This document shows positions 1,775-39,818 of a stretch of DNA of 64,000 bases, piece by piece. Both the position numbers and the translations under genes were made by a program. The notes under the pieces are model-generated. The model had not been told where the DNA came from, did not search any database, and saw only the letters and a list, made by a program, of their open reading frames with translations. The stretch is from positions 62,001-126,000 of the forward strand of contig SHZK01000002.1 of the NCBI GenBank assembly GCA_009692305.1, written 5' to 3'. Positions within the stretch are counted from its first letter, which is position 1, and every line of letters starts with the position of its first letter. This stretch comes from Gammaproteobacteria bacterium (lineage in GTDB: Bacteria; Pseudomonadota; Gammaproteobacteria; Pseudomonadales; Pseudohongiellaceae).

Positions 1775-3545
1775 TTATTTTTCCAAAATCGCTTTGATGG
1801 ATTCCAGTCGTTCCATGGCGTGCACGTAGCCGGCCTCAACCACTGCATCGAAAGCCTGCCAGTTCAGTAAATCCACATTGCCGAGAGCGGGTTGCAGCAG
1901 CACGTCACTGTAGTCACGCACCGTGGCAGAGTTGGTGGTGCCGTTTATCATTCCCGCTCTTAGCAACACCTGAAAAATATTGATGTGCTTTTCCCGGCCG
2001 GTCACCATGCGAATGAACTTCCACAATGGTGGTCCATCGGCTTCGGAAGAATCTGCGGTAAATACACCCTGCGCGCCTACATCCACTCCGATCACCGGGC
2101 CGCGACCTTGCTGCTGCATGATATCCACGGGCAAGTTATTGATCGTAGCACCATCGACAAAGATCTGACCTTCACTGAAGACCGGTGGCAACACGCCAGG
2201 AATCGCCACCGAGGCCCGCAACCATTACCACAGTTCGCCCTGACGATGCACCGCACTGTGACCCGTGGTGAGATTCGAGGATACACAAAAATACGGCAGT
2301 CTCAGGTCTTCGATAAGCACGTCAGCAAATTCGGGCCGTAGCAGGCGACTGACCTTGCGTCCGGCCACCAGTGCGATAAACGGAAAGGTATAGTCATCCA
2401 GCGGATTGGTGGCGACGAAAGAGCGCTTCATGTGAAACACCATTTCCTGATAGTCCCATCCTGCCGCGATGCCACCGGCAATGATGGCTCCAATACTGGT
2501 GCCACCAACCGTGTCGATGGGAATTGCCGCTTCCTGCAACGCTCGCATCACCCCGATGTGGGCGAAACCGCGCGCACCGCCGCCCGATAGCGTCAAGCCA
2601 AGTCCGCGCCCTGTGAGCAGACGTGCCAGTCGCGAACAATCTGCCATATTACCAATGTGGTGATGAGGAATGTCTGGCATGAGGTCGAGCCAGCCTCTGG
2701 CGGCGTGGGGCACGATGCCATTGGAATTCAGCAGCACCAGCTCCATTCGATATTGCTGACTGGCGTGATTGCCGATGACCGCTTGCCACGGCTGCGGCTT
2801 GGCGACCGCATGCGCCAGCAGCAATATTGAATCAGATTGTCGCAGACACAATCGGCTCCAGGCTGTGGCCTGGGAATCGGTAACATACACCACAAAATCA
2901 TGGCTGCGCTCAATGCCATGAAACCACTGACTGGTATGCTCGGTGCCGCTAACTTGCTGGATCAGAGCGGTGCGCCCAAAGCGTTGCAGGCAGCTGACCA
3001 GTTGGGTGGCAAAGGCGACGCCATCCACTTCCGGACTTTGCGGGACCACGGCAAAGGTCTTCAAGGCGGTGCGCGCTACGACGCTGCAAGCGCTGTGAGT
3101 TTTCCAGCCTCTGCACAATTAGACGGGTGATGTGCAACAGCTCGCGCGGATGATTCTGCATCAGTGCATCGAACCCCTGCTTCGGCCAGCGGCCCAGTTC
3201 CGAGTCGCGCAGGGCAATGATGGTGGCGTTGAGAGGATGGCCGGAGATCAAGGCCATCTCGCCCACAGTCTCGCCCGCCACGATATGTCCCAACAAGCGC
3301 CGGCCGCCCTGGTTCTGGTCAGCGGCAAAGGCCCCAAGGCAACCAGTGATGACGAAATACACCGCGTCGGCATCGTCCCCGGCTTCGAACAGGGTGGTGC
3401 CGCCAGGCAGTGCAAACCATTCAATCTCTTCTGCGATACAGCCCTGTAATTCCGAGCTTAGTTCACTAAACAGTGGCAGGCTGGAAACTACGCTGAGCAG
3501 GCTGGGAATGTCGCCGGTAATGCTGGTTTGGGAATCGTTTGGCAT
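1775..3545 (-). pseudogene. Broken cNMP-binding/patatin-like phospholipase (NTE/RssA-type)
   Basis: Read from ATG 3545 downward, the gene has an N-terminal cyclic-nucleotide-binding domain (about residues 20-150, GETVGEMALISGHPLNATI) and a C-terminal patatin lipase domain. The lipase shows the oxyanion loop GGGARGFAHIG, the nucleophile elbow GGTSIGA and the catalytic DG of FVDGATINNLP, so both dyad residues are still encoded. Two lesions split it. The frame changes between about 3060 and 3090 (…LENSQRLQRRSA to ALKTFAVVPQSP), and an in-frame TAA at 2225-2227 falls inside the conserved stretch GELW-stop-WLRASVAIPG. Intact relatives are cytoplasmic or membrane-peripheral lysophospholipases. Either this is a pseudogene or two separate consensus errors occurred. 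Confidence 0.8.
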
Positions 3546-21014: not shown

Positions 21015-21064
21015 ACCGAGCAACGTCTACATACCACGTACAGTAAATCAATGGAGAACTCACT

Positions 21065-21787
21065 GTGATCAGACTCGTCAACCTGAGCAAAGTCTATCAG
21101 ACCAGTTACATGGAAACCGTGGCTCTGGACAACATCAATATTCATATTCGCAAGGGCGAGTTCGTCGCGGTGATCGGTCCTTCGGGCTGTGGTAAGTCCA
21201 CTCTGCTCAATCTGGTGGGCATGATCGATACTGCCGCCAGTGGCGAATACTGGTTTGATGGCGTGGAAATCGCCCAGCGATCAGAGAATGAGCTGGTGGA
21301 TCTGCGCAAGAGAAATCTTGGTTTCATCTTTTAGAATTTCAATCTCATCGATGATCTCACTGTCGAAGAAAATGTTGATCTGCCCCTGCTGTATCTCGGC
21401 CTGCCCAGGAAGGAACGTAAACAGAAAGTGGCGAAGGCGCTGGATCTGGTGGGGCTCGGTGCCCGTGCCAGGCACAAGCCAGCCGAACTATCCGGCGGTC
21501 AACAACAGCGCGTTGCCGTAGCACGCTCAGTAGTGGGCGACCCAAAATTAATCCTCGCTGACGAACCCACCGGTAACCTCGATACAAAAAACGGCGACGA
21601 TGTGATGCACATGCTGGCGCTATTGAAAGAACAGGGTGCGACGATTCTGATGGTGACGCACTCCCCGGATCACGGCGCCAAGGCCGATCGCATTATCGAG
21701 ATGCTCGACGGACAAGTCATCAAAGGATCCTCTGCGGATACTGTGATCGCACTCAACAAGAAACAAACTGCGACTGCCCGATCCTGA
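21065..21787 (+). pseudogene. MacB/LolD-type ABC ATPase with amber codon at the Q-loop
   Basis: The frame encodes a complete 240-residue ATPase except for one codon. Walker A GPSGCGKST (about residue 39), signature LSGGQQQR, Walker B LILADEPTGNLD and H-loop VTHS are all intact. At 21332-21334 the codon is TAG where relatives read the Q-loop glutamine (GFIF-stop-NFNLIDDLT), which is what a single CAG-to-TAG transition would give. Without suppression only 89 residues are made. The partner permease follows after 25 bp and is intact. Relatives export lipoproteins, peptides or macrolides. Whether this is a true nonsense mutation or a base-call error is undecided. Confidence 0.78.
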
Positions 21788-39032: not shown

Positions 39033-39173
39033 AAAATTCTCCTGATATGGGTATTCCGGGCAGTATACCTTCAAGTCGGGTAATATCAGAACTGCGTTCG
39101 CTATTAGCCAGCGCCATTTAGCAATCTCAATTCAGTGCTAAAACCTGTTAGCGCAACAGCAATGGAAAGTCCC

Positions 39174-39818
39174 ATGAACGAGATCGTCATCGAGGTATTT
39201 ACCGACTACGTCTGACTCTGGTGTTACCTCAGTACCGTGAGTATTGATAAATTGAAAGCCAATTATCCCGTGCGCATACGCTGGGTGCATTTTCCCCTGC
39301 ATCCCAAGACGCCGCCGGAAGGCAAGTCACTGGCCGAGCTGTTTGCCGGGCGCGACATCGAGCCGATGCGAAAACGCATGCGCAGCCTGATGCAGGAGGC
39401 AGGTCTGCCCTACGGCGATCGCACTCATACCTATAATAGTCGCCTGGCGCAGGAGCTGGGGGCGTGGGCTGACACCCAACCCGGCGGCGCCAAGCTGCAC
39501 GATGCTTTGTACCGCGCCTATTTCGCTGAGGCGGTGAACATTGCAGACATAGACAAGTTGGTAGAAATTGTCGGCAAAGAAGGACTCGATCGTGACGCGG
39601 CTCGCACCGTGCTGGAAACCCGATCATTCAAGGCAGCGGTGGATGCGGACTGGGCGCGCTCACGGGCAGCAGGCATCACTGGCGTGCCGACATTTACCCA
39701 TGGCGATCTGGTAGTGGTCGGCTGTCAGCCTTATGAAATCCTAGAACGTTTTGTGCAGCACATCATCGGTTCAAAGGAAAAGAGACCACCAGCAGACACC
39801 GACTTCGCAAATCCATAA
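39174..39818 (+). CDS. DsbA/FrnE-like thioredoxin-fold protein with in-frame TGA at the active-site Cys (candidate selenoprotein)
   Basis: Read from ATG 39174 (GGAAAG upstream), the product is 214 residues in a single frame if TGA at 39213-39215 is decoded. The start reads MNEIVIEVFTDYV-(TGA)-LWCYL. Relatives have CPWC exactly here, so the TGA sits at the first redox cysteine and gives a U-x-x-C motif. The rest is intact and typical: FPLHPKTPPEGKSL, YNSRLAQELGAWAD and the cis-proline loop GITGVPTF. Known DsbA-like selenoproteins use this position. A small hairpin 12 nt after the TGA could be part of a SECIS. The alternative is a nonsense mutation, also because CPWC would be changed to xLWC. 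Without readthrough, translation could only restart near GTG 39237 and would lack the active site. Confidence 0.6.
39225..39243 (+). promoter_or_regulatory. Possible bacterial SECIS hairpin
   Basis: CTCA (39228-39231) pairs with TGAG (39238-39241) around the loop GTACCG, and two more pairs form outside a one-base bulge. The apical loop begins 16 nt after the TGA and its first base is G, both within the limits usually applied to bacterial SECIS elements. The stem is short, so this is weak support only. Confidence 0.3.

Follow-up and report, generated by a model that had tools for sequence, protein, structure and literature searches.

DsbA-like selenoproteins and FrnE relatives

DsbA-like selenoproteins carry a UxxC motif with selenocysteine (Sec, U) in the first position and have been listed as a DsbA-like protein of COG2761 with 9 sequences (PMC1088965), as DsbA 1 of pfam01323 with 63 sequences (PMC2398784) and as DsbA-like protein form 1 of PF01323 (PMC13188914). 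According to PMC8945050, FrnE is predicted to be a cytoplasmic reductase of the DsbA family; the active site of the Deinococcus FrnE proteins reads CP(W/F)C, and a C-terminal CxxxxC motif is found in many FrnE members, though not in all.

The gene studied here lies in a stretch of 64,000 nucleotides from a genome of the family Pseudohongiellaceae (contig SHZK01000002.1, positions 62,001 to 126,000), referred to as the window. Its codon 14 is a TGA, which is very probably read as Sec, resulting in a thiol-disulfide oxidoreductase of the DsbA/FrnE type. The recoding is deduced from the presence of the sel genes, the Sec/Cys pairing among homologues and a conserved SECIS element, which together support the proposal of an earlier note on this DNA that Sec replaces the first redox cysteine.

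The window protein contains both the PF01323 domain and a UxxC motif, by which DsbA-like UxxC form 1 and DsbA 1 are recognized, and it belongs to this already described class, whose published members were compared by their description, i.e., domain and motif. As far as the class is described in the cited papers, the window gene shares with it the PF01323 domain, Sec in the first position of UxxC, a bacterial SECIS element after the UGA and marine relatives; it differs in having ULWC where its own relatives have UPWC. Among proteins of solved structure, the window protein is closest in sequence to Deinococcus radiodurans FrnE (5cnw and others; phmmer E-value 3.9e-20) and Streptomyces coelicolor SCO1869 (3gl5; 1.5e-10), which are also the nearest by Foldseek rank. 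The FrnE motif CP(W/F)C starts with Cys, and the D. radiodurans protein has the C-terminal CxxxxC, whereas the window protein has Sec, a Leu in the second position of the motif and no CxxxxC. Because CP(W/F)C is absent, we call it FrnE-like rather than FrnE. There is also weak similarity (residues 107-194, 33 bits) to NF041057, the Rcas_1661 family thioredoxin-like (seleno)lipoprotein; however, this score is far below the 190-bit cut-off, and the family is by its name one of lipoproteins. A scan against NCBIfam gave no match above any cut-off, and one literature search combining Pseudohongiella with selenoprotein found no paper.

The locus adds a well-supported selenoprotein and a SECIS element that are common to most sequenced members of the genus. 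A small test set for the benefit of Sec in this fold is provided by neighbouring genera that switch from Sec to Cys and by the naturally occurring pair of ULWC and UPWC.

The gene and its active site

The features of the gene are collected in Table 1. The frame consists of 214 codons plus a stop codon; the TGA at codon 14 is its only internal stop, and the frame is open to the end thereafter, as had been claimed. The Pfam DSBA domain (PF01323) spans residues 5-193 and scores 105.8 bits against a cut-off of 25.6. The TGA is followed by CTC TGG TGT, which gives U14-L15-W16-C17, and residues 14, 17 and 184 are the only U or C of the protein. The loop GVPTF with P172, which we take to be the cis-Pro of the thioredoxin fold, is likewise intact. 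A gene caller that treats the TGA as a stop could start at GTG 39237 and annotate a 193-amino acid frame, thereby losing the active site. A structure model of the protein was mediocre (pLDDT 73.5, pTM 0.64, 23 rows) and superposed badly on its PDB matches (13.7 A and TM 0.44 at best); the fold assignment therefore rests on sequence, and the model was used for no distance. In a scan of the window against Rfam, one tRNA and no selenocysteine element were detected.

Table 1. Features of the DsbA/FrnE-like selenoprotein gene, in window positions.
Feature	Position	Strand	Evidence
DsbA/FrnE-like selenoprotein coding frame	39174..39818	+	ATG start; PF01323 105.8 bits; preceding in-frame stop at 39105
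GGAAAG upstream of the ATG (spacing 4 nt), putative ribosome binding site	39164..39169	+	suggested by the sequence
TGA codon 14, very probably a Sec codon in place of the first redox Cys	39213..39215	+	TGA in the genus versus Cys codons in other genera
Codon 15, CTC (Leu)	39216..39218	+	of the 68 remaining genus copies read, 67 have Pro and the decayed one has Leu
Codon 17, predicted resolving Cys	39222..39224	+	Cys in 68/69 genus copies; Arg in the decayed copy
Hairpin of the earlier note, CTCA-GTACCG-TGAG, 4 bp	39228..39241	+	overlaps the SECIS hairpin; less conserved
SECIS hairpin of 7 bp with the loop CGUGA (39236-39240; G at 39237, U at 39238)	39229..39247	+	conservation, synonymous constraint, recoding test
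Codon 172, presumed cis-Pro of the thioredoxin fold	39687..39689	+	Pro in 69/69 genus copies, 21/21 Cys homologues and 27/27 other loci
Codon 184, third Cys	39723..39725	+	Cys in 66/67 genus copies covered there

Sec and Cys forms among homologues

A protein search of 137 genomes of the family (E-value at most 1e-10) matched 96 genomes, and within the genus of the window species the gene was found in 68 of 84. The codon was read in all 69 copies of the genus, among them two like copies in genome G067, and in 21 of the 28 matches found in other genera. Codon 14 is TGA in every genus copy, one of which is decayed, and TGC or TGT in all 21 homologues from other genera, which is the expected Sec/Cys pairing and places the TGA at the first Cys of CPWC in relatives, as had been proposed. 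The conservation of the same TGA across the genus excludes chance, and since the 68 other copies have it too, a read error at 39213 is unlikely. Three genus copies have a later stop at codon 203 or 206, which was taken as a normal end.

A search of genome contigs yielded 27 loci, of which 26 have TGA and one has TGC; nine repeat genus sequences already counted, and 17 of the 18 new ones have TGA. Their record labels include SAR324, Desulfobacterales and Nitrosomonadales. A quick tree was built from 108 rows, 86 with Sec and 22 with Cys; many of its forks are weakly supported, and the Sec/Cys label requires two changes on it. The single TGC locus (L122, Betaproteobacteria) encodes a Cys homologue that is nested among Sec copies on this tree and lacks the SECIS element; it is possibly a reversal from Sec to Cys. 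In plasmid records, the homologues among the matches listed (10 of 19 records) were all below 60% identity. With respect to gene neighbourhood, 56 loci were examined (the nine repeats included), many of which are too short to show both neighbours: a relative of the divergent TPR gene adjoins in 33 and a relative of the convergent CoA-transferase gene in 22.

A conserved SECIS element

The 7-bp hairpin downstream of the TGA has the sequence UCAGUAC-CGUGA-GUAUUGA and, folded alone, an energy of -4.8 kcal/mol. Among 82 distinct TGA sequences, all seven pairs are present in 72 and six in the remaining 10, the decayed copy included. Of the 22 distinct Cys sequences, one forms six pairs and none seven. 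Loop position 2 is G and position 3 is G or U in all 82 TGA sequences. Among the changes within the pairs, one replaces both partners (pair 39231-39245, A-U to G-C) and several affect a single side; as covariation is thin, the case for the SECIS element rests on constraint. Synonymous conservation at codons 19-25 shows a mean excess of 0.61 over the seven codons (p = 4e-6; 68 genus sequences, the decayed copy L089 left out), and the five codons of highest synonymous constraint in the gene are all located within this segment; conservation is also raised at codons 15 and 17 and at some codons before the TGA. When 80 sequences were recoded synonymously 1000 times (two sequences with N were left out), full stems averaged 1.2 per round with a maximum of 6, compared with 70 observed. 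For the window sequence alone, 323 of 20000 synonymous recodings gave all seven pairs.

A published model of bacterial SECIS elements specifies a loop of 3-9 nt, an upper stem of 4-16 bp, a G in loop positions 1-2, a distance of 16-37 nt from UGA to loop and a minimum free energy of at most -7.5 kcal/mol, and a subset of elements is stated to fall outside it (PMC13188914). The window element agrees with the geometry (5-nt loop, 7 bp, G in the second position followed by U, 20 nt from UGA to loop) but misses the energy limit, as the 42 nt after the UGA folded with the SECIS reach -6.4 kcal/mol. The fold of the first 38-48 nt from the UGA reaches -7.4 kcal/mol with a structure other than the SECIS.

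The small hairpin that the earlier note had placed 12 nt after the TGA, with G first in the loop, does exist and is weak, as stated there; the overlapping hairpin one base downstream is better supported. As a SECIS candidate the former was rejected, since its energy is -2.3 compared with -4.8 kcal/mol and its four pairs are all formed in only 58 of the 82 distinct TGA sequences, compared with six or seven of seven pairs in all 82.

Leucine 15 and the integrity of the window copy

The change from Pro to Leu inside the motif, which had been held against a selenoprotein, is confirmed, and no other intact copy read shares it. UPWC is present in 67 of the 69 genus copies, and the second Leu is that of the decayed copy, which belongs to another branch of the tree. 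A 33-base stretch of the window recurs at 19 other places in 18 genomes with a single difference, CCC for CTC. CTC at codon 15 may be real or a sequence error. Deinococcus FrnE-like proteins with CGWC or CIWC have been described, which shows that Pro is dispensable in this fold (PMC8945050).

CTC at codon 15 also allows ACUC to pair with GAGU, in competition with the SECIS. The lineage could thus be one of real selenoproteins in which recoding has been reduced or lost in the window species. In line with this, the mean pair probability of the SECIS helix, folded from the UGA, is 0.24 for the window compared with a median of 0.97 in 80 sequences; however, thirteen other sequences score still lower, the window being 14th from the bottom. 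Without the UGA the value rises to 0.79, and it reaches 0.96 (median 0.97) once the UGA and the 9 nt after it are masked, which a ribosome at this site would presumably bring about. As the protein is also free of decay, reduced recoding is distinctly unlikely.

At the 94 columns that are at least 90% conserved, the window copy has four departures; intact relatives have 0-11 and the decayed copy has 23. Its divergence lies somewhat above the median (rank 55 of 69 by median dN), and comparison with the nearest relative gives a dN/dS of about 0.12 (0.208/1.74), a rough value because synonymous sites are near saturation. These data also bear on the possibility that the gene is a pseudogene, i.e., a Cys-type DsbA gene hit by a chance nonsense mutation, perhaps with a restart at GTG 39237 and a truncated product without the active site. 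Such an origin would fit two other window genes with nonsense codons and the decayed copy of the same gene in another genome of the genus (G077). However, it is already refuted for the lineage by the TGA shared by all 69 copies read, and the frame that stays open after codon 14, the low dN/dS and the few departures at conserved columns make it highly improbable for the window copy as well.

The decayed copy itself (L089, C185:20880-21526 of G077) has the motif ULWR and a second TGA at codon 52 and is split into two pieces; its genome keeps selA. The statement that other window genes carry nonsense codons holds for at least two. A frame for an ABC transporter ATPase (21047-21787, plus strand) is broken by TAG at 21332-21334, and a frame for a patatin/NTE-like phospholipase (1775-3118, minus strand) by TAA at 2225-2227; in each case both flanking pieces match the respective domain (PF00005 and PF01734).

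Selenocysteine machinery of the genome and the genus

The genome of the window species (3.08 Mb, 60 contigs, 94% complete) was searched for selA, selB, selC (tRNA-Sec) and selD, and all four scored over their cut-offs: selB at C1:515-2431 (375 bits, cut-off 242), selA at C43:9142-10524 (578 bits, cut-off 267.9), selD at C56:56608-57528 (294 bits, cut-off 125) and tRNA-Sec with the anticodon tca at C1:5082-5173 (64.9 bits, cut-off 47). That no sel gene is in view in the window had been noted correctly; they are located elsewhere in the genome.

The TGA could also be read as another amino acid through a changed genetic code or general suppression, and an open frame through a TGA could not by itself discriminate between these cases. 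However, of 29 long open frames sampled from the window (not all of them checked as genes), 11 end in TGA, the in-frame TGAs seen occupy redox positions and the genome encodes the Sec machinery, so that such a reading has a practically negligible probability. Insertion of Sec remains by far the most probable reading.

Across the family, selA is found in 93 of the 137 genomes. Within the genus, 60 of the 68 genomes with the gene have selA (in broken pieces in G088), and so do all 16 genomes without it. In the other eight, where no selA match was obtained, tRNA-Sec is present in six and selB scores above its cut-off in four; G057 and G117 show tRNA-Sec without a selB above that cut-off, and neither is seen in G114 (85% complete) and G128 (65%). 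The missing genes are likely due to gaps in draft genomes. In a further genus of the family (g2), selA is found in none of 11 genomes, and its eight matched homologues are all of the Cys form. As selA is also present in some genomes that have a Cys form (e.g., G013 and G016), the link between the gene and selA is one-way.

Three of the 17 AhpC-TSA matches in the genome of the window species hold one in-frame TGA each, at known Sec positions. These frames have the motifs TGGU (L143, C49:25794-26159), UPYC (L144, C6:198603-198998) and WUGC (L147, C52:5137-5484) and are probably further selenoproteins; the Sec motifs listed for peroxiredoxins and Prx-like proteins include TxxU, UxxC and UGC (PMC1088965, PMC2398784). 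As to other candidate selenoproteins of this genome, a search for formate dehydrogenase-N alpha gave four matches, none over the cut-off, and one for Rdx/SelW gave no match. The selD gene (L018) lies within an open frame of 757 amino acids compared with a model of 311 positions, which may point to a fusion with another domain.

Proposed mechanism

The UGA would be decoded by SelB loaded with Sec-tRNA under the direction of the 7-bp hairpin, which starts 13 nt downstream of this codon. By analogy with the thioredoxin/DsbA fold and D. radiodurans FrnE, Sec14 would act as the nucleophile that attacks a disulfide or an oxidised thiol, Cys17 would resolve Sec14 as a selenenylsulfide, and a cellular, cytosolic reductant would reset the enzyme. 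With the active site as early as residue 14, a signal peptide cannot be accommodated in front of it; the protein is therefore probably cytoplasmic, in agreement with the predicted location of FrnE proteins, and would likely serve in the cytosol to repair damage to disulfides or by oxidation.

Any part of Cys184 in this mechanism is speculative. Located in the turn after the cis-Pro loop, it might be a gained third redox residue that resets or diverts the selenenylsulfide, with Leu15 as a retuned site in the window species, a combination that we consider rather unlikely. Cys184 is present in 66 of the 67 genus Sec copies covered there, in none of the 18 covered Cys-type homologues of the family and in 4 of the 17 Sec copies outside the genus set.
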